Below the pieces are notes generated by a model. That model was not told the DNA's origin. It ran no database searches and worked only from the letters and a program-made list of their open reading frames with translations. A stretch of 64,000 bases of DNA from Eubacteriaceae bacterium (GTDB lineage: Bacteria > Bacillota > Clostridia > Lachnospirales > Lachnospiraceae), in contig CAJTFB010000001.1 of the NCBI GenBank assembly GCA_910575665.1, forward strand, positions 62,001-126,000. Direction: 5' to 3'. The position numbers and the translations under genes are program-made. Below, piece by piece: positions 27,091 to 64,000 of the stretch (positions are counted from its first letter, which is position 1; each line of letters begins with the position of its first letter).

Positions 27091-27212
27091 ATCCATGCCT
27101 CCTCAAAACCTGTCATTTGGGACTTGCCACATTCTCTTTATTTTTCCATTTTATAATAGTTTCATTATTTGTGCAAGTCTGTGATACTCCAAATGATACA
27201 GGCAAATTTCTC

Positions 27213-27241: not shown

Positions 27242-27253
27242 GTTAATCAGATT

Positions 27254-27301
27254 AGCACGACGGCGCCAATTTGAACCCTATTTCGTCCTGCGCTGGCAGC
27301 T
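27254..27301 (+). repeat. 48-bp end fragment of the MITE-like element
   Basis: These 48 bases match the reverse complement of the right end of the element at 11787-12059 (12059 down to 12012) with five differences, starting at the same TA and including the terminal repeat plus 20 bases of interior. The fragment lies in the 5' leader of the CoA-transferase gene. Confidence 0.65.
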
Positions 27302-27347
27302 AAATATGAAAATGATATCATTATGTTGTAAGGAGGATATTGGAACG

Positions 27348-37246: not shown

Positions 37247-38029
37247 TTACATATAATATAATTGATTAACAATTTCATTAATTACCGAAACTACATCTTC
37301 TACACAATCGTTAATAAAAAAATGGCCTCCATGAAACATATATAATGTACATTTATTATTTGTGTATAATTTCCAGTGTTTCATATCTTCAATTGATGTG
37401 TCCAAATCCTTGTCTCCTAAGAACACGGATATACTACAAGAAAGTTTATTCACAAACTCATGCAGACTATAAGTTTCTAGAATCTTATAATCTGCACGCA
37501 TTATAGGTAAATATATATCCATTAACTCCTGAGATTGGAAAAATTCCAAAGGAGTACCTCCTAATCTCAATATCTCTTCTTTTAGTACTGGAAATGGAGC
37601 ATCGTAAATTTTTTTTTTGATCGTAATCTTGTTTGGAGGTACTCTTCCAGAAAAGATGATATGTTTTGGTTCCTTATATCCTAAATCCATTAACCTATGA
37701 GTTAATTCCAACGCCAAGACACTGCCCATACTATGTCCAAGAAATATATAATCCGAACATAAAATTTCTTTTTCAATTTGCAATAATATATCATAAACAG
37801 CTTCATCTAATGTTTCATAGAATGGTTCATTATATCTTCTTCCCCTGCCTGAAAGCTCTACTGTATACAAATCTATATTGTCATTAAGATACGCTTTGTA
37901 TTTATTGTAACTTGTAGCAGAACCTCCTGCATATGGAATACATATCAATTTGATGTTTTTTTTGTCACTCATTTGCTTTTTGTATGGTATTAAAACACAT
38001 ACATTTCCTTTCTTTGCCTTTGCAATCAT
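37247..38029 (-). CDS. Type II thioesterase of the NRPS/PKS cluster
   Basis: A 260-residue alpha/beta hydrolase of the GrsT/SrfAD/RifR type. The core begins KLICIPYAGGSATSYNKY; the nucleophile is Ser100 in FLGHSMGS, the Asp lies in VFLGDKDLDTS and the His in FHGGHFFIND. Stand-alone type II thioesterases remove wrong or stalled acyl groups from carrier proteins. In this cluster it could also release the product, because no module in the window carries an integrated thioesterase. Last gene of the cluster. No terminator is visible before mscS. Confidence 0.9.
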   Translation of the reverse strand: MIAKAKKGNVCVLIPYKKQMSDKKNIKLICIPYAGGSATSYNKYKAYLNDNIDLYTVELSGRGRRYNEPFYETLDEAVYDILLQIEKEILCSDYIFLGHSMGSVLALELTHRLMDLGYKEPKHIIFSGRVPPNKITIKKKIYDAPFPVLKEEILRLGGTPLEFFQSQELMDIYLPIMRADYKILETYSLHEFVNKLSCSISVFLGDKDLDTSIEDMKHWKLYTNNKCTLYMFHGGHFFINDCVEDVVSVINEIVNQLYYM

Positions 38030-38053
38030 ATTAATTGTCCTTAGATGTTGCTT

Positions 38054-39562
38054 TTATATTTGATTCATACGAAATAGATATAATGCAATCTCTTCCATCA
38101 CTTTTTCTTCTCTGTCAAGATTCTCTGCGAAAGTACAAATGATATCTTTGGAAATAACTGGATCAAACGTAATGTTGTATTTAATTGCCAAATTGAGCAT
38201 CATTTTATAGGAGTCAACGATATCCATAAAATTTTCAACTATCTTGTTACTCATAAGCCTTAGATCATATAGGAATTTAAGTCGCTGAAGCATAATAGTT
38301 TTATGCTCATATATGCAAAAAATTGACGGCAAATGAAAATCTATTTTTCTCGTTTCTAAGCTTTTCAAATGGGATAAAAACTTTTTACAGCCATAAATAT
38401 TGTAATATGATATTTTGTCGTAACTTTTTTGTTTATCCCCATACTGTAGTAACCCTCTTATCATTTTGTTAATGTCTACATTCCATTCCACAAATGGACT
38501 TTTACTATAACTTCTATATGTAAAACAATTTTCTATATGTTCACCAACAATAGCAGCCTCCATAAATACATTATATGGTATAGAAAATGTTGTAAATTTT
38601 CCATTTAAATATTCTTGAACAGCAAACTCCATTTTATCGCGATTATATCCATAAACAAAGCAACCATGAAAAAGGAAACCTTTTTCATTTTCCTTATACA
38701 AATAATTTGTAATTATGTTTTTATTCCAAAAACAAAAGAAATATTCTTCCATATTAATTGTCTGTTCAACTAAATCACAAATAATATTTTTATTATTTTG
38801 AATTGGTATAATATGATATTTTTTTATCATAACTCCCTCCTGTGGAAGAAAGTCATAATAATCATAATATGCATGTTTCATCATTTGATGATCATCACGA
38901 TATTCAATATCTATATATTTATCAAATAGCCAACCATTTTGATATACTTCATTACCTAAGATGCTAAAACAGAAAGCATCTCCCAAGTATGTCTTTATAA
39001 CAGGATCATGAATAACTAATTCCTTTTTTCTTAAAGTTTCCTTTCTATGTTCAATGTTATTATCTAAATTTGCAATGTTACTCAAACTTCTTTTGTTATA
39101 ATTATGTTTAACAAATTTTAATGCTTCAAAATATATTTCGTTTTCTGTCAAAGCTTGTTTTGCAATGAAATTATATATTTCATTAAGTTCAATATCTTTA
39201 GCTAATGTTTCGTTTCCATCTTTTGTAAGCTGAACACCTTTAAAAAGACTGGTATTTATTTTTTTTAACATGAGATACACTTTTTCTTCCATTTTCTGTT
39301 TTTTCCCATAACCAATATATATTAACACATACTCATATTGTTCAAAACATTCAATAATGGTTTGAACACAATGTTCTATACATTTTTCTTTAGAAATTGG
39401 AAAGTTAAATTCAAGTTTTAAAATTTTATTATTTTTATATAAGTCTTTTATATTTTTACCGTTTGATAATACAAATTTACTTCTTTTCTTATTTATTTCA
39501 TTTTGTAAATTCATATATGGCATCATTTTTAAGAGTATTTCATTTTTTTCTTTGTCATCCAT
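38054..39562 (-). CDS. Unknown 502-residue cluster protein, very divergent BtrH-like
   Basis: Not recognised with confidence. The middle of the protein (residues ~185-345) has the layout of the BtrH N-terminal/cysteine-peptidase-like family: DAFCFSILGNEVYQNGW near the start, then a segment EYFFCFWNKNIITNY and the strand-loop FLFHGCFVYGYNRDKMEFAV, followed by an LNGKFTTFSIPYNVF stretch. The same strand-loop (HGILIAGYDDS) occurs in the cluster protein at 39941-40894. The N-terminal ~180 residues and C-terminal ~150 residues are Lys/Asn/Ile-rich and mainly helical. BtrH transfers an acyl group from an acyl carrier protein to an amine in butirosin synthesis. GAGAGGAATTAATA precedes the ATG. Confidence 0.45.
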   Translation of the reverse strand: MDDKEKNEILLKMMPYMNLQNEINKKRSKFVLSNGKNIKDLYKNNKILKLEFNFPISKEKCIEHCVQTIIECFEQYEYVLIYIGYGKKQKMEEKVYLMLKKINTSLFKGVQLTKDGNETLAKDIELNEIYNFIAKQALTENEIYFEALKFVKHNYNKRSLSNIANLDNNIEHRKETLRKKELVIHDPVIKTYLGDAFCFSILGNEVYQNGWLFDKYIDIEYRDDHQMMKHAYYDYYDFLPQEGVMIKKYHIIPIQNNKNIICDLVEQTINMEEYFFCFWNKNIITNYLYKENEKGFLFHGCFVYGYNRDKMEFAVQEYLNGKFTTFSIPYNVFMEAAIVGEHIENCFTYRSYSKSPFVEWNVDINKMIRGLLQYGDKQKSYDKISYYNIYGCKKFLSHLKSLETRKIDFHLPSIFCIYEHKTIMLQRLKFLYDLRLMSNKIVENFMDIVDSYKMMLNLAIKYNITFDPVISKDIICTFAENLDREEKVMEEIALYLFRMNQI

Positions 39563-39606
39563 TATTAATTCCTCTCTATCTTATTATATTTATATGTAAA
39601 TTTTAA

Positions 39607-39849
39607 TTAATCTATCATATCTTCTATATACCTTAAAAGATGACCAATATCTGGAAAAGAATCAACTTCCAACATGGTATTATCGAAGTGAATCCCGAAT
39701 TCCTTCTCAACTTCAACAACGATTTGTATAAAACTTAAGGAATCAATATTTAAATCTTTAAGTTTCGTATCATCACTAATTTCTGGGGAGATTTCCTTTT
39801 CCCATATCGTACTTATACTCTTAAATAATCTTACTTTTATGTCGTTCAT
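39607..39849 (-). CDS. Free-standing acyl carrier protein
   Basis: An 80-residue carrier protein with the phosphopantetheine attachment Ser37 in NIDSLSFIQIVVEVEKEFGI and the typical acidic helices. It lies between the two BtrH-like genes, the same neighbourhood in which BtrI (carrier) serves BtrH (acyltransferase) in butirosin biosynthesis. It could load a side-chain unit or accept the assembled chain for transfer. ATG 39849 with AAGAGGTGAGAAT upstream. Different from the acpP of fatty-acid synthesis in context; the DSL motif is intact. Confidence 0.88.
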   Translation of the reverse strand: MNDIKVRLFKSISTIWEKEISPEISDDTKLKDLNIDSLSFIQIVVEVEKEFGIHFDNTMLEVDSFPDIGHLLRYIEDMID

Positions 39850-39940
39850 ATTCTCACCTCTTTTTATAATTGAAAATGTTCGGCAACTCTGTGTTCCCTA
39901 ACTCTCCATGTTGATTTGCCTGTAAAATTCATTTCATTAC

Positions 39941-40894
39941 TTAATCCAACTGTTCGTTTATTTTGATAAGAAAGCTTCGCAGTTCACTATCCAGTTTTAA
40001 GTTCTGCTTCTGGTACATCTCCATATCCTCTGCACTTAACTCTATTTTACTAATAAATAATTTTATCAGCACGTTTACAATCTGTTTTCTACCACTGATA
40101 TAATACTGCTCAAACTGTTTTACTTCATCTGTAGCCGTATACTTTCCAATGATATCGAATGGAATGTGTAGTGAATTAATATAAGTACTAATAAATCTCT
40201 TCATATCGAAGTTCAGATTCTTTTGTAGTACTTGATTAAAGCTATTCACTACCTTCTCCAAATTAGAATTTTGCCCCTCAAGAATACAAATCCATTCCTC
40301 TATAGCACTTCTCACTGTGGGAATAGAAACTAACTCGTAGTTTTCTTCCACACTTACTAATTCAACATATGGTTCATGAAAGAATTTTTCAGCAGAATCC
40401 CATGCCATCTTTTCTATAACATAATCTGCAAGCCATAACTTAGGTAAACCACCACCATTTAATTCCGGATAGTTCATGTAGTTATGTGCCCATTCTCTGG
40501 TCTGTATTATTTCTCTGGAATCATCGTAACCTGCAATCAAAATACCATGCTCCAAATTGCTTCTTTTGTACTGCTCATAGGCAAAAAACAACGTACTATA
40601 ATGTACTTTTAAGATTACTGGGACTTCCCGATTTATGTATTCTCGAATTTTTGGAATTAAGCTACTTTTTTCTGTAACTTTACAGGATATGTAATCTAAT
40701 CCAAATCGATTCAGGTTTTCTAAGTCATTGACTTCTTCTTTCCAGTTAATCTGTATTGATGTATAAAACAAAAACATCTGATAATAGTAAAAATCATAAT
40801 ATCCAGCTGTACATGCTAGGGGCATATGCCAGCAATCAGTTTCTTCTATATGATAGCCATCTTTATATAAACTAAGTTCTAACTGTTTATCCAC
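39941..40894 (-). CDS. BtrH-like protein (predicted acyl carrier protein acyltransferase)
   Basis: A 317-residue protein I place in the BtrH N-terminal domain family (cysteine-peptidase fold). Evidence: a Cys-containing start (CWHMPLACTAGYYDFYYYQM), VPVILKVHYSTLFF, HGILIAGYDDSREII with the family His, and LPKLWLADYVIEKMAW. BtrH moves an acyl group from carrier protein BtrI to an amino group. In this cluster a similar role in release or tailoring is an inference from family and context. It starts at GTG 40894 with AAAGGGG upstream; no in-frame ATG is nearby. Just downstream of the ACT-domain gene and upstream of the free carrier protein. Confidence 0.6.
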   Translation of the reverse strand: MDKQLELSLYKDGYHIEETDCWHMPLACTAGYYDFYYYQMFLFYTSIQINWKEEVNDLENLNRFGLDYISCKVTEKSSLIPKIREYINREVPVILKVHYSTLFFAYEQYKRSNLEHGILIAGYDDSREIIQTREWAHNYMNYPELNGGGLPKLWLADYVIEKMAWDSAEKFFHEPYVELVSVEENYELVSIPTVRSAIEEWICILEGQNSNLEKVVNSFNQVLQKNLNFDMKRFISTYINSLHIPFDIIGKYTATDEVKQFEQYYISGRKQIVNVLIKLFISKIELSAEDMEMYQKQNLKLDSELRSFLIKINEQLD

Positions 40895-40906
40895 ATTTTC
40901 CCCTTT

Positions 40907-41278
40907 CTAAACAATAACACGATACTGCTTAGAATACAGTATCTGACTTGCCTTAGCAACATTTTCTTCTTTCACAAAAACATAATCTGTATTAAACGTA
41001 GAAACAACAAAAATACCAATTTGAGCTTCTGCCAAAGCTACTGAAATAGGAGCTAGAATTCCAATTAAAGAAAAATCCAAAATACCTTCTATTCGAAACC
41101 CCCTAAAGCCATCCTCACATGATACGGTAACCTTTGGTACACAATGGGTTGGACATACATAAGAAATTTCTTCATCCGTTATACTTAAAAAGGAAAATTG
41201 ATTCTTCTGTCTAACTTCCTCTAAGTCTGGCAACTTACAAATTGAAAATTTATCACTCAGCCATTGGATTGTAAACAT
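40907..41278 (-). CDS. ACT-domain protein (CASTOR/ACT_7-like)
   Basis: A 123-residue protein with two ACT-like halves. The second half carries the ACT_7/CASTOR signature: FRGFRIEGILDFSLIGILAPISVALAEAQIGIFVVSTFNTDYVFVKEEN, seen here as ILDFSLIGILAPIS and FVVSTFNTDYVFVKE. These domains bind amino acids. Its place inside an NRPS operon suggests sensing or handling of an amino-acid precursor, but no function is established. ATG 41278 after GGAGATAAAAA, 15 bases from the NRPS stop. Confidence 0.78.
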   Translation of the reverse strand: MFTIQWLSDKFSICKLPDLEEVRQKNQFSFLSITDEEISYVCPTHCVPKVTVSCEDGFRGFRIEGILDFSLIGILAPISVALAEAQIGIFVVSTFNTDYVFVKEENVAKASQILYSKQYRVIV

Positions 41279-41293
41279 TTTTTATCTCCTATT

Positions 41294-44200
41294 CTAAAAT
41301 AATATATCTAAATCGTCCTGTGTAATATCGCTATCATAAAAATCAGACGGTGTAAACGTAACCTCTGTCTCCGTCTTACAATTCTCTGTTAACCGGTCAA
41401 TCTGATTTAAGAATTCGTCGGCAAGAATATTCATGGTTGTTTCATAAAATTCTTCCACACAATAAGAAATTTCAATTTGCAGATGCTCTTTTTGCAACAT
41501 GATATTAACATCTAGTAGTGGTTGGAATTCATTCTCTTCATCTGTATCTATTTTTAAGGAATTCTCTAGTATTGTAAATTCACTGTAATTTGTTTCATTT
41601 CCAACATCCCCCAAATAGTTAAAACGGACATTTCTTTCGCCTTTGTGAGGCCACTCCAAGTTGTTTTGTTTTGCCCTCTCTCTGGCCTCCCGTAGCCTCT
41701 CCTTAAGTAACTTGACATTTGTATTCAATCTTTCGCAAGACAATGGAAGGCACACAGAATATATTCTCGTAAACCATCCCATGGTTCTGGATGTATTGCA
41801 TGTTTCACTAATATGATCCCTTCCCTGGCTCTCTATCTCCAGATTCAGAGTAGAAACATGAAACACACTACTTACAGCCAAGGAAAATGCAATTGCAAGT
41901 GATTCATCTAATGTAAGGTGATAGGTTTCATACACAGCCTCCCGAAATAACGATAATTCTTCACGGCTTTTTTGTCTACAGATTATTTTAACATCTTTCA
42001 TCATAGGATGTTCCACCCTTAAATCAACGGATATGGGTTCTATTTCTTTTTTAACGTTCTGGATCCGTCCACATCCCATAAAACAAGCCTTATAACTAGT
42101 GGTCTTCCTAGGTAATACAAATTCCTTTTGTTCTTTCTTGCAGGCTATAGCATGATTTAGATCTTCCAAAAAAATTCTCCATGATATCCCATCCGTGATA
42201 AGATGATGCATGGTAATAAATACTCTCGTTTTTGCCCTCTGAATAGGAACGATCAGGTAGCCAATCAAAAATCCTGATCCAAATGTGAAACGATTGAGTA
42301 ACTCTTCCATTCTACTGCCTATTTTAATTTCCCATTCTGTTTCTTTTATCATCTCAGGATAAACATATCCTCGTAATGAGCTAATTAATTCTTTGTCCTG
42401 ATAGTAAAACTTTTGCTCCTCTGGAAGATAATTTGCACGCAAAATATCATGGTACCCCACTAATTCCCTCATAATTTCATCTAAATCGGCAGGTTTCATT
42501 TTATATGGCAGTTCAATCACAATACTTTGATTATAATAAGCTGGATTATTTAGTTTTAGTGAAAAAAAGTATTGCTGTATAGGCGCTAAATCCATGGTTC
42601 CATTATAATTATCTGGATTATCACTTCCCATCTCCTGCTTCTTTACTATTATCTTAGCTAAAAGCCTTGCCGTCCGATATGTAAGAATATCACTTATCTT
42701 AATCTGATAATTTAAGGCATCCAATCTCGAGGTCAATTGAATTGCTTTGATGGAATCACCACCTAGAGCAATAAAATCATCATCAATTTCAATTCCTTCA
42801 ACACCTAAAACAGCCCCCATAGCCTCAACCAATATAATCTCTTTCTCAGATCGAGGGATTGTAACTTTATCGGCTTTTTGTATCTGGAAGGGAAGTTTTT
42901 CCACGTCAACCTTGCCATTTATCGTTAGAGGTATTGAATCAATTCTATAATACTGATCAGGAATCATATAACCTGGAAGAATGGAACATAATTTTAGTTT
43001 TATATCTACTTTATCCAAAGACTCCATACCTTTTAAATACGCACAAAGGAATTCACTTTGGGACGGTGTACGTTTTACAGTTACTATACATTTTTCACAA
43101 TTTGTAATATTTTGAATAGACTGCTCAACCTCAGAAAGCTCTATTCTATGACCTCTTAATTTAATTTGACTATCTTTTCGTCCTTTATATAATAAATCAT
43201 TACCCGAAATCCATACTGCCATGTCTCCTGTTTTATACAAACGAAGGCTTTCTCCTGTTTCCAGTTTCATAGTAAGGAATGCATGTTTTGTGTCGTCTGG
43301 CAAATTACGATACCCTCTAGCAAGTCCGTCTCCTGCAATATAAATTTCTCCTTCTTCATGGTCTGCTACTGTCTTTCCATTTTGGTTAAGCAGAAAAATC
43401 CTTACGTTATCTGCTGGTTTTCCTATTGGCACCGCGTATCCTGTATCTTTTCCTTGTCTGTACAAATAATTCATACAACCTACTACTGCTTCCGTAGGTC
43501 CATATTCATTATAAATTGCTATTTTCCCATGGAATAAGTCTGTTACCGTATTACATAGGTCACTTTTTAGATTTTCTCCACCTACGATCAGGCTGTGGAG
43601 CTTAGGGGATTCTACAATATGCGCTTTGTTAATAAGCTCTAAATGCGATGGCGTTGCTTTCATAACAGTAACTCTATTTTTCTTCAAAATAGTATAAAGA
43701 TTAAATTCTTCATCCACGACCGGGTAGATATCCATACAACAGCCAGAACAAAGTGGACAAAAGATTGATGTGATGGTTAAATCAAATGAAATAGAAGAAT
43801 AAAACGCGAATACATCTTCACTGTCTTTAAGATACATTTTACCAGCCCATTTGATATAATTACTTAGCCCTTTGTGCTCAATCATTACCCCCTTAGGCCG
43901 TCCCGTTGAACCTGATGTGTAAATGGTATATGCAAGCTCGCTCATTATAGACAGATCTATCGCTTCATCATCTTCTGATAATAAATCAATCTGACTAATA
44001 TCCATTGTTTTTACTGGATAATAATTTTGCCTTTTTGTTTCTTTTTGAATGAGAAGCTGTACATTAGAGTCCTTTATAATGTACTCAATCCATTCGCTAG
44101 GATAATTTGGATCCACCGGTACATAAGAAGCACCTGCTTTTAATACAGCAAATATAGCAATAATCAGTTCTATCGAATGAGGATAGCAGATTGCAACAAT

Positions 44201-45715
44201 ATCTTGATTTTGCACTCCATGTTTTATAAGATAATTTGTTAATTGATTAATCTTTCTGCTTAATTCTTGATAGGTTATACTTTTTTCCCCACACATGCAT
44301 GCAGTTTGTTCTCCAATTCTTTCCACCTGTTCTTCAAATAATGCAATAACCGTTTTCTTTTCCTTAACAAAATGGATTGTATTATTATATTGTATTAACT
44401 TTTCGTATCTTTCCTGATATGGCATTAGTGAAATATCCTGAAGATGCCCTATATTATCTTGTACAAATGATTTTGCTATCTGAACAAGATAACGGTAGAT
44501 CGTATTAATATCATTTTCTTCATAGTAGGATAAGTTATAGTCTAAGTCCAGCTCAATTTTCTGGATATCTTCATGCAATACAATAACAAGTTGCAAAGGA
44601 TACCACTGCGCACATTGAAAAACCTGCTCAATACAAGCTGGATTTCCATCGATGGTATCTGAATATTTTGCAACATAATAATTAACACAGACGTCAAATA
44701 GACTTTCATATCCTTCTTTTCTTATGCCCAGGTCATTTATTAACAGATCATAAGGATACCGTTGCTGAGACAAACATTTTTTTAATTCTCTATTCACTGT
44801 CTTAAAAAATATATCGCAGGCCATGTCTTCCGAATAGGATACACGAACTGGCATCGTACTCGTAAACATTCCAACCATTTCCTTCTCCTGTTTTCCTATC
44901 CTGTTATATACTGGCACTCCAATAACGATATCATTTATGTTTCTTATCCTTCCCAGGTAAAGAATCATGATACTTGTAAAAAAACTATCAAGAGATAATT
45001 TCTTATTTTTTAGGAAGCAGAAAATCTCTTGTGATAATTCTTTCTCTAAAAAGAACTTAATGCGTTTTGCTTTGATTGCATCCTTTTTCAATGAAACCAT
45101 GTTTTGGGGAAGTGTTGAAAATTTTTTTATCCAGTAATCTCTATTTTTTCTACACCGCTCTGAATCTAAATATGCTTTTTCAGTATTTAGATAGGTTAAA
45201 TAACTTGGTTTGGTTTCCTGTCCATGAACAGTACTTCCCTTTTTCAGCATTTCATAATAGTCTGTGATCTGTTTTTGTATAATACTTGTTGACCAGCCAT
45301 CCGATATTAAATGGTGCATTTTCAAAAAGATGCCATATTCTTCTTTTTCGGAGCAAAAAACTACAAACTCATATAGCTTACCATCTATAAGTGTAAATGA
45401 AGTATTCAATTTATTAGAATACCACTGTTCAATTGTTTCTTTATTTTCCTTTGTAAAATCAACAAATTCGATTTTCTCTGTTTCATAATCTTCCAGATAT
45501 TGTTCGAGTTCTCCACTTTTTTCAAAAAACCGAAGTCTTAATCCATCATTATTCTTAATCGTAAGATTGATTGCTTGTTTGATAAGCGAAATATCGACTT
45601 CTCCTTTTATTTTCATAACTCCGATGATATTATGTAATTGTGAATCGTTATAGGCTTTTTCTAGATACCAGATTCTTTTTTGTGGGTGTGAAAGGTGATA
45701 AGACTTTTTTCGCAT
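41294..45715 (-). CDS. Nonribosomal peptide synthetase, C-A(Asn)-PCP-E
   Basis: A 1473-residue module. C domain (residues ~5-430) with HHLISDG at 134-140; A domain (~455-945) with TSGSTGRPKG, NEYGPTE, LYKTGD and NGK; PCP with Ser988 in ALGGDSIKA; E domain (~1020-1473) with HHLITDGISWRI at 1170 and FNYLGDV. Reading the pocket by alignment to GrsA gives D-L-T-K-I-G-E-V-G-K, one position from published asparagine codes, so the unit should be D-Asn. The C domain starts with an LHNIIGVMKIKGEVD segment that resembles acyl-accepting starter C domains, a possibility only. ATG 45715 follows AGAGGAAGCGTT; a TTG 33 bases upstream is less likely. Confidence 0.92.
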   Translation of the reverse strand: MRKKSYHLSHPQKRIWYLEKAYNDSQLHNIIGVMKIKGEVDISLIKQAINLTIKNNDGLRLRFFEKSGELEQYLEDYETEKIEFVDFTKENKETIEQWYSNKLNTSFTLIDGKLYEFVVFCSEKEEYGIFLKMHHLISDGWSTSIIQKQITDYYEMLKKGSTVHGQETKPSYLTYLNTEKAYLDSERCRKNRDYWIKKFSTLPQNMVSLKKDAIKAKRIKFFLEKELSQEIFCFLKNKKLSLDSFFTSIMILYLGRIRNINDIVIGVPVYNRIGKQEKEMVGMFTSTMPVRVSYSEDMACDIFFKTVNRELKKCLSQQRYPYDLLINDLGIRKEGYESLFDVCVNYYVAKYSDTIDGNPACIEQVFQCAQWYPLQLVIVLHEDIQKIELDLDYNLSYYEENDINTIYRYLVQIAKSFVQDNIGHLQDISLMPYQERYEKLIQYNNTIHFVKEKKTVIALFEEQVERIGEQTACMCGEKSITYQELSRKINQLTNYLIKHGVQNQDIVAICYPHSIELIIAIFAVLKAGASYVPVDPNYPSEWIEYIIKDSNVQLLIQKETKRQNYYPVKTMDISQIDLLSEDDEAIDLSIMSELAYTIYTSGSTGRPKGVMIEHKGLSNYIKWAGKMYLKDSEDVFAFYSSISFDLTITSIFCPLCSGCCMDIYPVVDEEFNLYTILKKNRVTVMKATPSHLELINKAHIVESPKLHSLIVGGENLKSDLCNTVTDLFHGKIAIYNEYGPTEAVVGCMNYLYRQGKDTGYAVPIGKPADNVRIFLLNQNGKTVADHEEGEIYIAGDGLARGYRNLPDDTKHAFLTMKLETGESLRLYKTGDMAVWISGNDLLYKGRKDSQIKLRGHRIELSEVEQSIQNITNCEKCIVTVKRTPSQSEFLCAYLKGMESLDKVDIKLKLCSILPGYMIPDQYYRIDSIPLTINGKVDVEKLPFQIQKADKVTIPRSEKEIILVEAMGAVLGVEGIEIDDDFIALGGDSIKAIQLTSRLDALNYQIKISDILTYRTARLLAKIIVKKQEMGSDNPDNYNGTMDLAPIQQYFFSLKLNNPAYYNQSIVIELPYKMKPADLDEIMRELVGYHDILRANYLPEEQKFYYQDKELISSLRGYVYPEMIKETEWEIKIGSRMEELLNRFTFGSGFLIGYLIVPIQRAKTRVFITMHHLITDGISWRIFLEDLNHAIACKKEQKEFVLPRKTTSYKACFMGCGRIQNVKKEIEPISVDLRVEHPMMKDVKIICRQKSREELSLFREAVYETYHLTLDESLAIAFSLAVSSVFHVSTLNLEIESQGRDHISETCNTSRTMGWFTRIYSVCLPLSCERLNTNVKLLKERLREARERAKQNNLEWPHKGERNVRFNYLGDVGNETNYSEFTILENSLKIDTDEENEFQPLLDVNIMLQKEHLQIEISYCVEEFYETTMNILADEFLNQIDRLTENCKTETEVTFTPSDFYDSDITQDDLDILF

Positions 45716-45752
45716 AACGCTTCCTCTTCTTTCTGTTAAGTGTTTCAAGCTA

Positions 45753-46988: not shown

Positions 46989-46990
46989 TT

Positions 46991-50200: not shown

Positions 50201-50216
50201 TTCACCTTCCCTTTAA

Positions 50217-51854: not shown

Positions 51855-51868
51855 AATCTTCCTCCTAA

Positions 51869-55819: not shown

Positions 55820-55824
55820 TCAAT

Positions 55825-57840
55825 CTACCCCTTGAAATTATCTAAAATGGAGGCTGTATCATTGATATCAATTTTTCCATCGGAAAGCTGATCTAACAAA
55901 TACATAAGTTCCAAATCCATTTCACTATTCTCTTCCTTATTATTTTCAAAATGTTCAATAAACTGAGCTATAGATGGATACGAAAACAAGTCGGCAACTT
56001 GAATTTCATAACTACAGATTTCCCTCAATTTATTATGCAGTGTCACAATGGTAACTGATGTACCACCAATATCCATAAAGTTGTCATGTATACCTATCGT
56101 ATCTACATCTAGGGAAAGAACCTCTGCCCAGATTTGTACAAACTGTTTTTCTCTTTCATTTCTTGGTTCTACATACGCATTTTTCTTTTTTATTCCCTTC
56201 TCTAATTCCGGAAGTTTTTTTCTATCAATTTTTCCATTTGGTGTCAATGGCATTTCATCTATCTCAATAAAAAACGATGGAATCATATAATCTGGAAGCA
56301 TTTCTCGTAAATATTCCGTCAATTCTTCTAGAATAATACTATTCTTTGAGGCAGTATAGTAACATGCTATACTAGTTACTCCCATAGAATCTAACCTTGG
56401 GATCACCGCAGTCTCCTTAATTCCATCATAGCTAACTACTGCCCTTTCAACTTCCTTTAATTCTACACGAAAGCCTCTGACTTGAACCTGATCATCTTTT
56501 CTTCCCAGATACAAAAAGTTACCATCATCTGTTAACAGTCCTAAATCTCCTGAACAATAGAGTCTCTGCCCTGTAACTGGATGAGTTACAAACGCTTTCT
56601 TTGTCTCTTGCTCTTTATTTAAGTATCCCGTGGTGATACCAGTTCCTCCAATACAGAGTTCACCTTTTTCACCAATAGAACAAATCTGTCTATTCTCATT
56701 TAACACATATACTTTTGTATTTGCAATTGGTTTTCCCAGGGGGATACTTAACTGTTCTTGTGGCGGAATTGTCTCTATCGGATAATAAGTCGCATAGACT
56801 GCTGATTCTGTCATTCCATATATATTTGCAATTTTCGCCTTAGAAAAAGTCTGGTACCAGTCTCTTGCAAGATTGGTAAGTAATGCTTCTCCCCCATTAA
56901 AAACCCACTTTAATTTGGGAAGTGGCTCCGTAATCTTAGCTATTTTAATATAATCCAAAAATAATCTCATCTGCGCTGGAACAAACTGTGTAATTGTTAC
57001 TCGCTTGTCGAATAGTTCCTGATATAGTTTTTCAGGTTCTTTACCAGTTTCATATGCAAATACTGAGATTTTTGCGCCACAGATAAGCGTCCAGAAAAAC
57101 TCCCAAACAGAATCCGTAAAACTTGCAGATGTTTTTTGTGCAATCACATCATCTTTCGTCAATTTGAATTCACTCTGTAGCCATAGAAGCGTATTCATTA
57201 CAGCCTTTTGTGGAATCATAACTCCCTTTGGATTTCCTGTAGAACCAGAAGTATAAATGATATAAGCAAGCGAATCCTCCTTTGCCAAGCAAATCTTGGT
57301 ACTTCGATACTCTTTTCGAATTTCGTCTAAAGAGAATAGGTTCCTATCAATTTCTATCTGTCCCGGTTTGTCTAAGCAGACGATTGTTTCTATATAATCA
57401 TCAGCATACTGCAAAAGGAATTCTAAATTATTACTATCTGTTATTACAATTTTACATTTACAGTCAGAAAGCATGTATTGAATACGTTTCATTGGATAAT
57501 TAGGGTCAATCGGAACATAAGCTGCTCCTGCTTCCATAATACCAAGTATAGAAGCAATCATTTCAATGTTTCTGTCTGCAAAGACAGCTACCAAGTCATT
57601 AGTTTTAACGTCTTGTCCATTGAGAAACTGAGCAATTTTGAAAGAATCCTTCTTCAAATCATGATAGGTAATCGAGCGTCCGTTATCTTCTATCGCTATA
57701 TTTTCGGGATCTTTCTCAGCCTGAAGAATAAACTGCGCTGGAATGGTCATTTCTTTACCAAAAACAGTTTCCGTCTGATTTATTCGATCAATCAGAGCAT
57801 GATCACTTAAATTATTCTTAGTTATGTCCGTTGTCATCAT
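55825..57840 (-). CDS. NRPS A-PCP protein with C-terminal docking tail
   Basis: A 671-residue protein without a condensation domain. The A domain (~25-545) has YTSGSTGNPKG, IYGMTESA and LYCSGDLG; by alignment to GrsA the pocket is T-D-W-Q-F-G-I-V-Y-K, as in the C-A-PCP protein except V330. The PCP has Ser595 in DIGGTSVTI (GGTS instead of the usual GGDS). The tail LMYLLDQLSDGKIDINDTAS resembles the tail of the megasynthase cut by the right window edge and could dock to the next KS. Condensation may be supplied by the C domain of the upstream KS-ACP-C-C* protein. ATG 57840 after ATAAGGAGTGTA. Confidence 0.9.
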   Translation of the reverse strand: MMTTDITKNNLSDHALIDRINQTETVFGKEMTIPAQFILQAEKDPENIAIEDNGRSITYHDLKKDSFKIAQFLNGQDVKTNDLVAVFADRNIEMIASILGIMEAGAAYVPIDPNYPMKRIQYMLSDCKCKIVITDSNNLEFLLQYADDYIETIVCLDKPGQIEIDRNLFSLDEIRKEYRSTKICLAKEDSLAYIIYTSGSTGNPKGVMIPQKAVMNTLLWLQSEFKLTKDDVIAQKTSASFTDSVWEFFWTLICGAKISVFAYETGKEPEKLYQELFDKRVTITQFVPAQMRLFLDYIKIAKITEPLPKLKWVFNGGEALLTNLARDWYQTFSKAKIANIYGMTESAVYATYYPIETIPPQEQLSIPLGKPIANTKVYVLNENRQICSIGEKGELCIGGTGITTGYLNKEQETKKAFVTHPVTGQRLYCSGDLGLLTDDGNFLYLGRKDDQVQVRGFRVELKEVERAVVSYDGIKETAVIPRLDSMGVTSIACYYTASKNSIILEELTEYLREMLPDYMIPSFFIEIDEMPLTPNGKIDRKKLPELEKGIKKKNAYVEPRNEREKQFVQIWAEVLSLDVDTIGIHDNFMDIGGTSVTIVTLHNKLREICSYEIQVADLFSYPSIAQFIEHFENNKEENSEMDLELMYLLDQLSDGKIDINDTASILDNFKG

Positions 57841-57880
57841 TACACTCCTTATCCATTTTCTCTATTGCCACATTTCCTTA

Positions 57881-59050
57881 TCAATTATCTTTTATAAAAA
57901 ATGTAACCAGACGGTCAATTGCTTCATTATATCTTCTGTTTGAATAGGATAAACGAAGTGTTGTTGGTAAACCGAAATCTGATCCAGGGACTGTTGCTAC
58001 CTTTTTGGATTTCATAATATTTTCTGCTAATTCCAGACTTGATTTAATATTCTTAGCATCCATATAATCTTTACATTCAAGTGTAAAATAGAAACTACCC
58101 TTAGCAGGAATCGCACGTACCAAAGGAACTTTTTTAAATTGTTCTACTGTATAATCCCTTCTATTTTTATAAGTACTGATTAACTCATCAATATCTTCCG
58201 GGTACTTTAATGCTTCTAATGCACCAAACTGTACAACTGGGTCCGCTGTAAGCAATGTATGATGCTGAATAACATTCAATGGTGTAACTAACTCATCGGG
58301 AACAATGCAATAGCCTACTCGTCTGCTGTACATTCTGTATGCTTTTGAAAATGCGTTTGTTGTAATAAATACGGATTTGGTATTCTTAAGTTCCAGTACG
58401 GAAGTACTCTTTTCATCGAAGCAGGCATTTGCATAGATCTCATCATTGATAACAACAGCTCTTCCATCAATAATTTCATCCATTTTATAAAGTTCTTCTT
58501 TGGTTAAAATATTTCCAAGAGGGTTTCCTGGAGAGTTGATAACAACAATCTTCGTCTTATGCGTAAAGTTTGCTTTGAAAGACTCTATATCTAATTCCAA
58601 CGTATCTACATTTATATCATAATATTTAACTTTTGCACCTACCAAGTCCGCACAGAAATGATATAAAGAATAATATGGATGTGGAAGGAGAACTTCGTCG
58701 CCTTCTTTTGCAAACAGATAGAATAAGTTTCTGAATAGCGCACTTGTACCTATATTAATAATAATGTTATCTGGTTTAATATCCAGATTGTAGTTTTTCT
58801 TGTATTCATCAGCGATTGCAACTTTTAATTCTGGTAATCCAGCCGGGAATACAAGCGAGTACTTATCATAATCATCCAATGCATCTTTCATTGCATTAAT
58901 AATTTCAGGTCGAATTGGTAATTCTGATTTACCTAATGTCAAACGAATTACATCATTTGAATCATCCTTTTCATACTCATATGCCATCTGATCCATTACA
59001 AACATAAGAAATCTGCTGTCGTAAAAATTAATTTTGCTTCTAATCTCCAT
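57881..59050 (-). CDS. PLP-dependent class I/II aminotransferase
   Basis: A 389-residue fold-type I aminotransferase. The parts seen are the N-terminal IRLTLGKSELP, NIGTSALFRNLF, LPHPYYSLYHF, INSPGNPLGN and the cofactor Lys in TTNAFSKAYRMYSRRVGY. Located between PKS and NRPS genes and separated from both by short gaps, it is part of the cluster. It could make a non-proteinogenic amino acid for the two unusual A domains; the substrate cannot be told from sequence. ATG 59050 after TAGGAGGAAAAATA. Confidence 0.9.
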   Translation of the reverse strand: MEIRSKINFYDSRFLMFVMDQMAYEYEKDDSNDVIRLTLGKSELPIRPEIINAMKDALDDYDKYSLVFPAGLPELKVAIADEYKKNYNLDIKPDNIIINIGTSALFRNLFYLFAKEGDEVLLPHPYYSLYHFCADLVGAKVKYYDINVDTLELDIESFKANFTHKTKIVVINSPGNPLGNILTKEELYKMDEIIDGRAVVINDEIYANACFDEKSTSVLELKNTKSVFITTNAFSKAYRMYSRRVGYCIVPDELVTPLNVIQHHTLLTADPVVQFGALEALKYPEDIDELISTYKNRRDYTVEQFKKVPLVRAIPAKGSFYFTLECKDYMDAKNIKSSLELAENIMKSKKVATVPGSDFGLPTTLRLSYSNRRYNEAIDRLVTFFIKDN

Positions 59051-59061
59051 TATTTTTCCTC

Positions 59062-62000
59062 CTAAAGTTCGATATTATTTATAATTTCATTTAAAACAAG
59101 CTTATATTTATCTGAAATCATGCTAGCAAACGAATTATCATCGCTGGCACTATTCCAAATCAAATGAATTTTATATGCCCCTTTGGCTTTCATAATTGAT
59201 AACTGTAATAAATATTCTGTGGAATATCGACCTATCATTTCCTCAATCAAGTCATCAGGAACATAGTCATAACTAGTGTCATCAGAGAATAGGAATGGAC
59301 TTATTGGCACATCTATTCCTGATTTGTCACTATCTGTGACTGCTTTCATAAATAGATAGTTTGCATTCTCTAATGTTTGCTGACAACACTCTTTCACATA
59401 TACTATTAATTTTTCAAATTGTACCACGCTGTTTGTATCTAGACAAACAGTAATTGGAGTTCCTATTACATAAGGAATCTTTGTTTTGTTAATATTCCTT
59501 CCAAAATAACCATCCATTTCAATGGATACCTGTGGATTCTTTGTCAGTTGTCTAACTACCAGTGCATAAGCTGCTAAAAACAGATGTGCAGCTTTACAAT
59601 TTAGTTTTTCTGTAAATAAAAACAATTTCTGGCTGTCTTCTTCCGACATTACATAACAATATTGAAAACGGTCATTTCCTATCGTCTGTTTCTTCTGTTC
59701 TCTGTTATAGTAGAAATCCGTTTGTAGTTCCTTTTTCTGTTCCCAGAAATATTTTTCAGTCTCTAAATATCCTAATTCTGCTGCTTCCTTCATCCACTCT
59801 ATATAGTCCAGTCCTGAGATTTGTTCTTTCTTTCGAAGCTTAGGATTTGATTGTGTATTCATATCTCTTGCTATACAAAACAAATCATTTATAAACTGCT
59901 TTGGAGAATACAAGTTCAGCAATATTTTATGAAACGAAAAAATCAGATAACTACTTCCATCTTTCTTATAGAAAAATTCTGCTTTCCATAATAATTCCTG
60001 ATCCTTTATGTAATTTTGTTTTCCTGCTTCTATCATCTTCTTTTTCACGAATTCAGTTTCATTTAAATCATCCTTTCGTTCTTCTATAATTAATGGTAAT
60101 TCTGGTTCATTTCGAATTCTGAAAACTTGATTTTCCTTTGTAACTTCAAATGTGGTTCTCAAATTCTGATTTATTCTAACCATCTGTTCCAATACTTCCC
60201 TTACATTCACCTCCCCACTCCAACGCAGGTAAAACACATAGTTGCCAACACACGATCTACCAGCCTTCAAATCATTCATACCGTCTGTTACAACATATGA
60301 TCTTCTCTTTTTACCTGCCTGCAATTCGGGCAACCGAAAACCATTCTCAGCAAACTTTCTCTTTCTCGACAGCCACATGCTCTCTTCTTCTGTAAAAAGA
60401 ATATACTGGTGGATTTTTAAATTCGTTTCACTCAGTACTTGAATGATTGCTTTTTTAAAATGCCGCGCAAATAACGCAATTGTTTCTTTTTTGAAAATCC
60501 GCTTATAATACTCTATTGAAAAATGGAACGTCCCATCTTCTCGCATATAAACATCTGTTTTCAAATCTAATGTAGTGCTTCCTTTGTTATAATCAAGCAT
60601 TTTTAACTGTATTGGCCCTAAATCAATCTCTACTTTCTGCTTCCCCTGATTATGAAGTATTATCATGGTATCAAATAGTGGATTTCTTGATAAGTCCTTA
60701 TTCACATTCAGTTTTTCTACGATCATTTCAAATGGATAATCTTGATTATCAAATGCTTGTATTGTCGTCTCTTTTACCTGTTCTAATAGCTCTTCAAAAA
60801 CTAAATCACGATTTATATTCATCTTCAAGGGCAAATAATTAGTAAATAAGCCAATCGTTTTATCCGCCTTTGCAAAATGCCTTGATGAAATCAGCGAACC
60901 TACAATAAATTCCTTCTGATCTGTATATAAATGTAACAGCATCGTATAAATCGTTAGTAACACGATATATACCGTGGTACCTTTTGAGTTTGCTAATTTC
61001 TTTAACTGCCGAACATATCTCTGTTCTAAAAAAAAGTCTAAGTTTTCACCTTCAAAGCTCATAATCTTTGGTCTTGGGTAGTCATATGGCAAATTTAATA
61101 CATTAGTATGTACTTTTTCTGTTTGAAGCTGATGAATCCAAAAAGCTTCCTGCTTTTTTATTTCCTCTCCTTTGAGGAAATCATATTGCCAGCAGGCGAA
61201 ATCTTTGTATTGTATTGCTAATTCCGGCAGTTCCTTGTTAAGATATAGATCTCCTAATTCACGAATTAAAATCTCCATAGACTTGCCATCAGAAATAATA
61301 TGATGCATATCCATCATCAGAAGATGTTTTCCTTCCTCATTAATTTCATAGTATCCTACCCTGAGTAATGGAGCCTTGCTTAAGTCAAATGGTCTGATAA
61401 ACTGCTTTATCAACTTGGGAATATCCTCTTTGTCTACCATTCCGTATGTAACTTTAAATGTAGACGAATCCTCCACCTGCTGTTTGATTTCATTATCTAT
61501 GATATGAAACTTTGTTCGGAACACCTCATGGCGATTTACAATCTTCTGTAAAATACCTTCTATCCTTTCAACTGCAATATCCCCTGTAACTTCACATATG
61601 CAAGGCATATTATAACAAACACTGCCTGGTGAAATCTGGTTTAATATATACTGTCTCTTTTGTCCACTTGAAACTGGATAGTATAACTGTCCGAAAGCCT
61701 TCTTTAACTCTTTTGAACATATGACATTGGCATGTTTTGATTTAATTAATTGACACATTTTCTTCAACGTCGCATTCAAAAATATCTCTTGAAAAAGAAT
61801 ACTTACCTGAAACTTCTCATAAATAAGTGCAATTAGGTCATTGGCTAAAAGAGAATCCCCTCCCAGGTCGAAAAAGTTCTGTTCTTCTTTTATATCCTGA
61901 ATTCCAAGAAGTTTTTCCCATATTGCCTGTAAACTATGCTCTATGCTATCTTCTTTAAGACTAATATTCTCATCTTCTTTATCAACCCAATATGATTTAC

Positions 62001-63837
62001 GATTCCATGCATAAGTCGGTAAAGAAACTTTTCTACAAGTCACTGGATAGAATAATTTCCAGTCTACTTTTTCAAATCTCACATACTTTTTTGCAGCCTG
62101 TATTGTTTCTTCTTTATATCCTGTTACTAATTTATTATGGCTTTTTTGTATTTTCACATCACTGCTTAAGTAAATACCTTTCAAAGAACATGTTTCCTTT
62201 TCTTCCAAATGTAAACTTAACGATTTTAACTGACTAAGCAGTTTTTCTTTTTTTCTACAAGGGATTGCACAACGTACCTTCTGATGTTCCCTTCCCGTAT
62301 TCAGCACATAACATATTTCTTCTAAGGTATATTTTTCATTTTCTTCCAAAAAGGAAATATATTTCTGTAATAACGCGTAAAATGATAAATTATCCCTTGC
62401 TGATATGGTAAAAACCCATTCTTTAGTCGAATTTTGAATTCTATGTGGCTCATCCGGGTATTCTTCCAGTACAATATGACAGTTTGTTCCACTGAATCCA
62501 AAAGAACTTATGCCTGCATACCTTAGTTTACCATCTTCCTGCTTCCACTTTCGAAGCTTCGTATTCACATAAACAGGTGAATTTTCAAGGTTCATTAGGG
62601 CATTAGCCCGTCGGAAATGTAGTGACGCCGGCAGTTCCTTGTGCTGTAGTGCTAAGATTACTTTAATTAGGCCTGCAATACCTGCCGCGGAGTCTAAATG
62701 CCCCATATTGCTTTTCACCGAACCGATTGCACAGAACTGTTTTCGTTTGGTAAACTTCTGAAAAGCATCTGTCAATCCTTTCACTTCAATAGGATCACCA
62801 ATTTGGGTGCCTGTACCATGTGCTTCAATATAGGTTATCCGCTGGGGGGGAATTCCAGCATTCTTCCAAGCTTGGGTCAAGACATTTTTTTGTGCTAACG
62901 CATTCGGTGAGGCTATACCGTTCGACTTCCCATCCTGGTTGATTGCCCGTCCTTTAATAACGGCATAAATATTATCTTTATCTTTCTTTGCTTCTTCAAG
63001 TGACTTAATAATGACTGCGCCACAGCCTTCCCCCCATCCAGTACCATCTGCATCAATATCAAAACTTCTGGATACTCCATTGGGTGACGAAATTCCGATA
63101 CCTCCTAATTCTTCCATTCCCGGCATCGGTTTAATTGCAACGCCTCCAACCAAAGCCATCTTACATTCATTTGCCAGTAGGCTATTACACGCCATATCTA
63201 ATGCAACTAACGACGATGAACATGCCGTCGCCACACTAATTGCTGGTCCCGATAAATTTAAAAAATAAGATAATCTGCTTGCGATAATTGGAGGAAAGTT
63301 ACCAACAAAGGAGGCCGTTCTATTCTCATCAACTAATTCTTCATATCTTGGCTCACTATATCCAACAAATATTCCAAGGCTTGAATTTCTTACCTTCTTT
63401 CCAGCATAGCCCGCATCTTCAAGCGCCTCATATCCAACTTCCATAAATAATCTTTGCTGTGGATCCATACATACCGCTTCACCTGGAAGAATTTGAAAAA
63501 AATCGGCATCAAATTTATCAATATCTTCTAAATACCCTGCTGGAATCACTTTTTCTCGATTAATTCCATTTGAAAATGGCAAAACCAACTCATATCTTGA
63601 CTTTGGAAATAAGCTTACAAGATCATTTCCATCCCTTAAATGACTCCAAAATTCGTCTTTTGTTCTAGATTGTGGAAAACGACAAGCCATTCCGATAATC
63701 GCAATTTCCTTTTTATTATCATTTGTTTCAACAATTTGCTTAGAATGCTGAAATTTTTTGATCAGCAGATAGGCAACATCCTCAGATATCCTATTATTCG
63801 CCACAAATTCCATAATGACTTTGACAAATTCATCCAT
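59062..63837 (-). CDS. Hybrid PKS/NRPS: KS-ACP-C and a degenerate second C domain
   Basis: A 1591-residue protein. KS with Cys206 (VATACSSS), His340 (EAHGTGTQIGDP) and His380 (NMGHLDSAA); no AT; ACP with Ser662 in DLGGDSLLA; first C domain with HHIISDG at 845-851; then a second, poorly conserved C-like domain (~1190-1590). The position of HHxxxDG in the second domain reads FHKILLN, so the second His stays but the Asp and first His are lost. The start is uncertain: ATG 63849 has a ribosome binding site only two bases away, while ATG 63837, used here, aligns with the docking helix of the other PKS. It overlaps the end of the preceding gene. Confidence 0.88.
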   Translation of the reverse strand: MDEFVKVIMEFVANNRISEDVAYLLIKKFQHSKQIVETNDNKKEIAIIGMACRFPQSRTKDEFWSHLRDGNDLVSLFPKSRYELVLPFSNGINREKVIPAGYLEDIDKFDADFFQILPGEAVCMDPQQRLFMEVGYEALEDAGYAGKKVRNSSLGIFVGYSEPRYEELVDENRTASFVGNFPPIIASRLSYFLNLSGPAISVATACSSSLVALDMACNSLLANECKMALVGGVAIKPMPGMEELGGIGISSPNGVSRSFDIDADGTGWGEGCGAVIIKSLEEAKKDKDNIYAVIKGRAINQDGKSNGIASPNALAQKNVLTQAWKNAGIPPQRITYIEAHGTGTQIGDPIEVKGLTDAFQKFTKRKQFCAIGSVKSNMGHLDSAAGIAGLIKVILALQHKELPASLHFRRANALMNLENSPVYVNTKLRKWKQEDGKLRYAGISSFGFSGTNCHIVLEEYPDEPHRIQNSTKEWVFTISARDNLSFYALLQKYISFLEENEKYTLEEICYVLNTGREHQKVRCAIPCRKKEKLLSQLKSLSLHLEEKETCSLKGIYLSSDVKIQKSHNKLVTGYKEETIQAAKKYVRFEKVDWKLFYPVTCRKVSLPTYAWNRKSYWVDKEDENISLKEDSIEHSLQAIWEKLLGIQDIKEEQNFFDLGGDSLLANDLIALIYEKFQVSILFQEIFLNATLKKMCQLIKSKHANVICSKELKKAFGQLYYPVSSGQKRQYILNQISPGSVCYNMPCICEVTGDIAVERIEGILQKIVNRHEVFRTKFHIIDNEIKQQVEDSSTFKVTYGMVDKEDIPKLIKQFIRPFDLSKAPLLRVGYYEINEEGKHLLMMDMHHIISDGKSMEILIRELGDLYLNKELPELAIQYKDFACWQYDFLKGEEIKKQEAFWIHQLQTEKVHTNVLNLPYDYPRPKIMSFEGENLDFFLEQRYVRQLKKLANSKGTTVYIVLLTIYTMLLHLYTDQKEFIVGSLISSRHFAKADKTIGLFTNYLPLKMNINRDLVFEELLEQVKETTIQAFDNQDYPFEMIVEKLNVNKDLSRNPLFDTMIILHNQGKQKVEIDLGPIQLKMLDYNKGSTTLDLKTDVYMREDGTFHFSIEYYKRIFKKETIALFARHFKKAIIQVLSETNLKIHQYILFTEEESMWLSRKRKFAENGFRLPELQAGKKRRSYVVTDGMNDLKAGRSCVGNYVFYLRWSGEVNVREVLEQMVRINQNLRTTFEVTKENQVFRIRNEPELPLIIEERKDDLNETEFVKKKMIEAGKQNYIKDQELLWKAEFFYKKDGSSYLIFSFHKILLNLYSPKQFINDLFCIARDMNTQSNPKLRKKEQISGLDYIEWMKEAAELGYLETEKYFWEQKKELQTDFYYNREQKKQTIGNDRFQYCYVMSEEDSQKLFLFTEKLNCKAAHLFLAAYALVVRQLTKNPQVSIEMDGYFGRNINKTKIPYVIGTPITVCLDTNSVVQFEKLIVYVKECCQQTLENANYLFMKAVTDSDKSGIDVPISPFLFSDDTSYDYVPDDLIEEMIGRYSTEYLLQLSIMKAKGAYKIHLIWNSASDDNSFASMISDKYKLVLNEIINNIEL

Positions 63838-64000
63838 TACTATCTTCATATCCTTTCACTGCATCCTCAACTGTAATTTCCTGCCCTTTTACCTTGCGAA
63901 GTAATTCCATTAGTCCTTTGTCTTCGTCGTTTATTTCTTCTGGCAATGGCTTCTCGTTCTCTTCTTCTTGCCGATTTCTATCTTCAATAAAATCCGCCAA
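63830..64000 (-). CDS. C-terminal end of a further megasynthase, cut by the window
   Basis: 57 codons are open from the right edge to the stop at 63830-63832. The protein end reads ADFIEDRNRQEEENEKPLP, then a tail with GLMELLRKVKGQEITVEDAV. This tail aligns with the end of the A-PCP protein (LMYLLDQLSDGKIDINDTA), and both lie directly before a PKS gene starting with a similar helical N-terminus. So this is probably the PCP or ACP-ended partner of the KS-ACP-C-C* protein, likely an NRPS-type protein whose body lies right of the window. It overlaps the next start by eight bases. Confidence 0.75.
   Translation of the reverse strand: MADFIEDRNRQEEENEKPLPEEINDEDKGLMELLRKVKGQEITVEDAVKGYEDSNG

Follow-up and report, generated by a model that had tools for sequence, protein, structure and literature searches.

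Genes of the cluster and the predicted assembly line

The DNA analysed here is a stretch of 64,000 nucleotides from a Eubacteriaceae bacterium (the window; C1:62001-126000 of a 4.19-Mb genome, such that a window position is the C1 position minus 62000), and the system in question is a hybrid non-ribosomal peptide synthetase (NRPS) and polyketide synthase (PKS) cluster that runs past its right edge. The cluster spans C1:99247-141632 (42.4 kb), with 15.6 kb lying beyond the window, and comprises 19 open genes on the minus strand. The open reading frames (ORFs) and domains listed in a first-pass annotation of the window were recovered, all on the minus strand and without internal stops, and the rightward continuation that it anticipated exists; the frameshifts that it named as a possible sign of decay in the continuing genes are not there, as none of the 19 frames is broken. 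The explanation that we consider likely, from gene content and motifs, is that this is an acquired NRPS and trans-acyltransferase (trans-AT) PKS system that would make an N-acyl-D-asparaginyl prodrug, unmask it at export and guard its producer with a UvrA paralogue; the prodrug part of this explanation we regard as very likely.

The enzyme predicted to begin the chain (41294..45748, minus strand) consists of condensation (C), adenylation (A), peptidyl carrier protein (PCP) and epimerase (E) domains. Adenylation codes were read throughout from a MAFFT alignment against a GrsA stretch, and the code of this enzyme (A4, DLTKIGEVGK) is one that we take to be of the Asn type, in agreement with the earlier call of an asparagine unit paired with an epimerase. 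The code is identical in all five C-A-PCP-E enzymes compared, which come from the window cluster, a cluster in Metabacillus idriensis, two relatives of the window genome (G006, of the same genus, and G648, of the same order) and a second locus of the window genome itself (C21). The window enzyme has a TPSDF-type tail, and a stand-alone C domain encoded outside the window (C1:133288-134625, minus strand; PF00668, motif HHIILDG) starts like a C domain downstream of an epimerase, features that we take to be the motifs of a pairing between an epimerase and the C domain that follows it. The top PDB matches of the stand-alone C domain are McyB, TycB and bacitracin and surfactin synthetase chains, several of which presumably follow an epimerase. 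This domain probably acts in place of the half-C domain that opens a 2097-aa protein (half-C-A1-PCP, then ketosynthase (KS), ketoreductase (KR) and acyl carrier protein (ACP) domains; C1:125830-132123, minus strand, with its 3′ end in the window at 63830..64000; A1 code DPQNIAIVNK), because HHxxxDG is intact in the stand-alone domain and missing from the half-C domain, as it is in M. idriensis.

The remaining synthases all lie in the window on the minus strand. They are a KS-ACP-C-C* protein whose second C domain is degenerate (59062..63849; a single HHxxxDG, absent from the second C), an A2-PCP protein (55825..57840; code TDWQFGIVYK), a KS-KR-ACP protein recognised by its domains and motifs (51869..55819; no cis AT) and a C-A3-PCP protein (46991..50200; code TDWQFGIIYK). 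The Asp expected at position 235 is found at 236 in A2 (PDB alignment made with LgrA), and because Asp235 is missing, the codes suggest a non-alpha-amino acid as the substrate of A2 and A3. All three KS proteins carry the Cys/His/His motif and none has an AT domain at E<=0.001, while one discrete acyltransferase is encoded at 45753..46988 (minus strand; PF00698, 1.8e-34; GHSLGE by motif scan); the trans-AT arrangement proposed in the first-pass annotation therefore holds. The carrier-serine motif was detected in six of the seven carrier-containing proteins, and in the seventh, C-A-PCP-E, it was missed by the pattern and GGDSIKAI is present by eye. Two further enzymes are encoded among the synthases on the same strand, namely a NodU-type carbamoyltransferase (50217..51854; PF02543/PF16861), already named as a carbamoyltransferase from the window alone, and an aminotransferase class I/II enzyme dependent on pyridoxal 5′-phosphate (PLP; 57881..59050; PF00155), whose top PDB match is the aspartate aminotransferase 1o4s and whose nearest PDB entries are aminotransferases.

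The peptidase-exporter fusion and a predicted acyl-D-Asn cap

Outside the window, at C1:137366-140482 on the minus strand, lies a gene for a 1038-aa fusion of a ClbP-like peptidase and an ATP-binding cassette (ABC) exporter. The N-terminal half can be aligned to ClbP, membrane part included (residues 41-488 against 15-465 of 7mdc by phmmer), and the C-terminal half corresponds to a cyclic-peptide exporter (TIGR01194, 339.9 bits against a cut-off of 286.2, residues 504-1027), which supplies the exporter that had been expected to the right of the window. Passages of the ClbP structure paper (PMC9889268) identify the residues that mark catalysis or prodrug-activating peptidases, giving Asn331 as strict, Ser or Thr at 188, His or Asn at 257 and Glu92 as highly conserved, with His257 of ClbP itself dispensable; they also describe the ZmaM, PamJ and EdeA homologues as longer peptidase-ABC fusions. 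We scored eleven ClbP positions in the fusions of the window, M. idriensis and G006, and nine of these fit in all three (E92, S95, K98, Y186, T188, N257, N331, W460 and W466). The S12 catalytic residues S95, K98 and Y186 are thus present in the window fusion, K240 of ClbP is also kept in the fusions, and the set that forms the D-Asn pocket (N331, T188, N257 and E92) is complete in each of the three fusions and in none of three control proteins. Among these controls, Staphylococcus aureus Flp agrees with the fusions at E92 and the catalytic residues and differs at three positions (N188, D257 and L331), its fragment stopping short of the membrane part that holds the tryptophan positions; both control proteins of the bla2 kind show Asp at 188, either D or G at 331 and no residue at 466, and the M. 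idriensis bla2 protein has a Trp opposite 460 in one alignment that is absent in a second. The prediction that the fusion is a ZmaM-type acyl-D-Asn prodrug-activating peptidase-exporter is well supported by its sequence. The window cluster has a bla2 gene of its own, for a second S12 hydrolase (C1:140499-141632, outside the window, minus strand; PF00144), and this protein was ruled out as the D-Asn peptidase by A at 92, D at 188 and D at 331.

Because the fusion keeps the ClbP positions and a C-A(Asn)-PCP-E enzyme is encoded with it, acyl-D-Asn is most likely a removable cap that is absent from the mature product. The first-pass annotation had instead proposed a D-Asn-containing product, a claim with which the residues of the fusion disagree. 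Some observations weigh against the cap: ClbP Lys235 is replaced by Leu in all three fusions, the peptidase domain is closer by score to S. aureus Flp (196.9 bits) than to ClbP (150.7 bits), making Flp its best-scoring PDB entry, and the C domain of C-A-PCP-E is best matched by 7c1k, presumably a starter C domain, at 92.6 bits, while the third-ranked sequence reaches 91.0 bits, so narrow a lead that the starter-C assignment is weak. The first two of these would suit an ordinary NRPS/PKS in which D-Asn is kept in the product and the fusion is simply an exporter joined to an S12 hydrolase of other function. We consider that alternative unlikely, since the fusion has the residues of the D-Asn pocket as well as both tryptophans, and the motifs of the C-A-PCP-E tail and of the start of the stand-alone C domain are those of an epimerase and its downstream partner.

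Biosynthesis of a capped chain could proceed as follows. C-A-PCP-E, which would act first despite being encoded late, would acylate Asn and epimerise the acyl-Asn, and the stand-alone C domain, replacing the half-C domain of the 2097-aa protein, would join acyl-D-Asn to the residue selected by A1. The chain would then be extended in the order KS-KR-ACP, KS-ACP, A2-PCP, KS-KR-ACP and C-A3-PCP, the discrete AT supplying malonyl units, and the carbamoyltransferase would carbamoylate a hydroxyl. The fusion would export the inactive chain, after which the acyl-D-Asn cap would be cut off outside the cell and the A1 amine freed, and the UvrA paralogue would shield the producer.

The other cluster genes, again on the minus strand, encode a 260-aa type II thioesterase (TEII; 37247..38029; PF00975, 3.7e-35; 43% identical to the M. 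idriensis TEII), a 502-aa protein of no assigned family (38054..39562), an 80-aa free acyl carrier protein (39607..39849; PF00550, 1.2e-9), a 317-aa BtrH_N/C39-like protein (39941..40894), a 123-aa ACT-domain protein (40907..41278; PF13840, 2.9e-18) and, outside the window, a radical-SAM protein (C1:132139-133275; TIGR01210, 241 bits against a cut-off of 212). Two BtrH-like proteins had been reported here. The 317-aa protein retains that resemblance at 23.5 bits to BtrH_N, under the Pfam cut-off of 29.7, and weakly suggests a possible role in acyl transfer; the 502-aa protein does not, as it has no Pfam match at E<=10, no counterpart in the M. idriensis set compared and a single-sequence model with a mean pLDDT of 35.

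The UvrA paralogue, sister loci and insertion of the cluster

The gene for the UvrA paralogue (C1:134622-137348, outside the window, minus strand) comes immediately after the exporter gene in the window cluster and in M. idriensis alike. It is one of three copies in the window genome, the others being the housekeeping UvrA on C19 (949 aa) and a UvrA-like protein on C86 (737 aa). The housekeeping proteins of the window genome and M. idriensis are 62.6% identical and the two cluster proteins 48.2%, with cluster-to-housekeeping identities of 41-48%. In a quick tree of 27 rows, from which one further locus without a whole ORF was dropped, the two cluster proteins form a pair at 99, to which the UvrA of the G006 cluster attaches at 91 (not starred), and this group is separate from the housekeeping rows. 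Among the five acyl-D-Asn loci compared, UvrA is present in three (window C1, M. idriensis and G006), and this distribution, together with the grouping apart from housekeeping UvrAs, makes a DNA-targeting product plausible but unproven. We regard it as close to an even call, falling just short of one, that the paralogue protects its producer from an active compound that binds or damages DNA. Where the first-pass annotation had left the molecular target of a secreted product unspecified, beyond host cells or competitors, the paralogue points to DNA.

Several observations tell against such a role. The cluster branches of the tree are flagged as long, so that their join is possibly false; the window UvrA keeps most of its UvrB-binding domain, being shortened by about 40 residues, with no such shortening in the copy of M. 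idriensis; and no UvrA was seen in the other two acyl-D-Asn loci, namely that of G648, for which 64 kb of contig was read, and the C21 locus of the window genome. The Cys motifs are kept in the window UvrA. Passages of PMC10192343 describe UvrA-like proteins of the DrrC/Ecm16 type as lacking the UvrB-binding domain and Ecm16 as conferring self-resistance to a DNA-targeting compound, and passages of PMC9613472 describe uvrX of tilimycin as a UvrA-like gene guarding against a DNA-alkylating product of the gut. Because its UvrB-binding domain is not lost, the cluster UvrA does not appear to belong to the DrrC/Ecm16 subfamily, although it may work like a member. These points suit an alternative in which the same acyl-D-Asn prodrug machinery serves a product with a target other than DNA, such as the ribosome, and UvrA is a hitchhiker or a general stress-repair protein. 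The retained Cys motifs and UvrB-binding domain and the two loci in which no UvrA was seen all favour it, as does the precedent of paenilamicin, which according to the passages available from PMC9054821 inhibits the ribosome and has a prodrug peptidase accompanied by an acetyltransferase; similar dual systems are named there for zwittermicin and edeine. On the other side stand the position of UvrA directly after the exporter gene in both hosts, its separation from the housekeeping UvrAs and the presence of a related UvrA inside the acyl-D-Asn cluster of G006. We consider a target other than DNA a serious possibility, if somewhat less than an even one.

A search of genome contigs with the fusion found seven loci, of which only that of M. 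idriensis matched at near full length (residues 9-1027, 53% identity). The cluster of M. idriensis DSM 19097 (NZ_WKKF01000009.1) has counterparts for 14 of the 19 genes, and 12 of these are collinear (bla2, the fusion, UvrA, the stand-alone C, the half-C protein, KS-ACP-C-C*, the PLP enzyme, A-PCP, KS-KR-ACP, the carbamoyltransferase, C-A-PCP and AT). Identity is highest for the PLP enzyme (76%), followed by the carbamoyltransferase (66%), and is 36-52% for the megasynthases and 33% for the stand-alone C domain. The A1-A4 codes are the same up to V/I/T changes. In M. idriensis, however, TEII and C-A-PCP-E are encoded on the other side, with the C-A-PCP-E gene on the opposite strand. The 3′ half there is longer and contains further NRPS/PKS proteins, and inspection by eye showed a methyltransferase-like gene where the window cluster has radical SAM, as well as an Sfp-like gene. 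In the set compared, no M. idriensis match was found for the 502-aa, free ACP, BtrH-like, ACT and radical-SAM proteins. The GC content of the M. idriensis cluster is 34.2%, compared with 35.8% in 8 kb beside it and 44.4% in 5.5 kb sampled from a different contig. Resolvase-like (G061:C9:33841-34398) and tyrosine-recombinase-like (102925-104091) genes were seen by eye near the ends of this cluster. These features hint at a mobile element around the M. idriensis cluster, on a contig of low GC where sampled.

The carbamoyltransferase is rare. At E<=1e-120 the only genome with it among 397 in the window's family was the window genome; in the order it was found in two of 392 (the window genome and G648, at 54%), and in the M. 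idriensis family in one of 80 (M. idriensis itself). In plasmid records the NodU-type proteins were below 60% identity to it in all 213, and a full-length fusion was found in none of 101 matching records at 80% coverage. The congener G006 carries a separate acyl-D-Asn cluster with a fusion of 36% identity, the UvrA mentioned above and, by eye, FkbH- and acyl-CoA-dehydrogenase-like genes. G648 combines C-A(Asn)-PCP-E with a carbamoyltransferase of 52-54% identity and a peptidase of ClbP length (439 aa) that has T188, N257, N331 and W466 but Q92 and V460. The second NRPS/PKS locus of the window genome occupies C21:19791-67339, with its C-A(Asn)-PCP-E at 20507-24985 (by eye, from its code and two HHxxxDG motifs). 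Also seen there by eye were TEII, electron-transfer flavoprotein (Etf) and acyl-CoA dehydrogenase genes, two ABC transporters and an FkbH-like haloacid dehalogenase (HAD) protein. The S12 protein of C21 has N opposite 331, but Q92, G188, K257 and no Trp at 460 or 466. C21 appears to be a second acyl-D-Asn line, whose extender route would be of the hydroxy- or methoxymalonyl type. An S12 protein of ClbP length is encoded elsewhere in the genome (C25:11324-12610, a 488-aa frame, 29% identical to residues 9-466 of the fusion) and could be the peptidase of that line.

The cluster sits between rlmH and mscS, with a GC content of 34.8% against 44.6% and 44.3% in its flanks. In the congener G003 only 22 bp separate the ORFs of rlmH and mscS, an empty site, and in G004 a single unrelated ORF of 376 aa lies between them; G006 has other genes in between, only the mscS side is visible in G001 and the site is not syntenic in G005, so that none of the five relatives read carries the cluster there. 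Because of the low GC relative to the flanks and the empty site in a congener, we take the cluster to be a horizontally acquired insertion at the rlmH-mscS site. The insertion begins directly after the stop codon of rlmH, whose 3′ end lies outside the window at C1:141985. In staphylococci, the 3′ end of rlmH is the place at which staphylococcal cassette chromosome (SCC) elements insert. An SCC-like integration was considered for the window cluster and set aside, as no recombinase was seen among the 19 genes and the ends show only direct repeats of 12 bp and 13 bp. The low GC and the rarity of the carbamoyltransferase (one in 397 family genomes at the threshold above) would also suit a cluster that has decayed or fallen silent and persists by chance after its transfer, but with every frame open, active-site motifs in place and the common genes open in two hosts at 33-76% identity, we think this very improbable.

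To the left of the cluster the window contains the operon of a butyrate pathway (14418-20479), with thiolase, crotonase, 3-hydroxybutyryl-CoA dehydrogenase, acyl-CoA dehydrogenase, EtfB and EtfA genes, and, on the opposite strand, a gene of the acetyl-CoA hydrolase/transferase family (27003-28688). The butyrate-pathway neighbourhood described in the first-pass annotation is thus real, whereas the link that it drew between the cluster and central energy genes is not sustained: the cluster is a low-GC insertion missing from congeners at this site, for which reason its place beside these genes looks incidental, and we dropped the idea of a meaningful adjacency. Two adjoining large BspA-type leucine-rich-repeat proteins (1050 and 892 aa) are encoded at 21266-27096. 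Besides an exporter, a regulator and a phosphopantetheinyl transferase had been expected on the right; no regulator was seen in the right-hand part of the cluster, and a holo-ACP synthase is encoded 5 kb past the cluster (C1:146415-146831) and an Sfp-type phosphopantetheinyl transferase away from it (C27:17742-18416).

The best-studied small-molecule genotoxins of the gut (colibactin, tilimycin and indolimines) are products of enterobacteria, and passages of a review from 2024 (PMC11581169) name producers in Clostridium and Bifidobacterium as well. If the product of the window cluster does target DNA, a butyrate-producing type of anaerobe that is normally deemed beneficial would carry a masked compound of that kind. 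We propose only tentatively, and with more doubt than confidence, that the cluster exemplifies a new class of peptide-polyketides from butyrate-type anaerobic Bacillota, compounds that would be activated from prodrugs, directed at DNA and guarded against by UvrA; it would combine unmasking in the style of colibactin with a tilimycin-like repair guard in one mobile cluster, with a core common to Metabacillus, a UvrA-bearing sister in a congener and two acyl-D-Asn lines (C1 and C21) in the window genome. A ZmaM-type peptidase together with an Asn C-A-PCP-E and UvrA provides a signature that can be searched for.

Comparison with known systems

Among the titles and abstract openings of the matches listed, we found no literature on the window cluster or on any single cluster that has UvrA together with a ZmaM/ClbP-type peptidase, and no treatment of the M. 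idriensis cluster was apparent from the titles and abstract openings for that species. The colibactin system (ClbN/ClbP), as far as the available passages describe it, shares the acyl-D-Asn cap and the ClbP-type peptidase residues, but ClbP has about 450 aa and no ABC part, whereas the window protein is a 1038-aa fusion. Colibactin also has a resistance protein of its own and aminocyclopropane chemistry.

Tilimycin (til island, uvrX) and echinomycin (Ecm16) share with the window cluster a UvrA-like protein encoded with an NRPS, which in those two systems serves as self-resistance to a DNA-targeting compound. The passages available mention no acyl-D-Asn peptidase for either, and the window UvrA, unlike Ecm16, keeps most of its UvrB-binding domain. 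For naphthyridinomycin and saframycin, passages of PMC8648761 describe an NRPS propeptide with prodrug maturation and UV-repair proteins as joint self-resistance; these are Streptomyces systems, however, and the same passages do not name a peptidase of the ClbP type.

The nearest likeness is to zwittermicin, paenilamicin and edeine, which, in the partial descriptions available, are also hybrid NRPS/PKS systems of Bacillota with acyl-D-Asn prodrug logic, a long peptidase-ABC fusion and a second self-resistance gene. That second gene encodes an N-acetyltransferase in those systems (PamZ and ZmaR, and EdeQ by title), whereas the window cluster has a UvrA paralogue. The 271 peptidases aligned in PMC9889268 may include those described here. 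The PLP enzyme, the carbamoyltransferase and the adenylation codes may define a scaffold distinct from these three. The cluster thus apparently belongs to a known kind, the ZmaM-type prodrug NRPS/PKS, with an unusual UvrA guard and a core that appears to be new.

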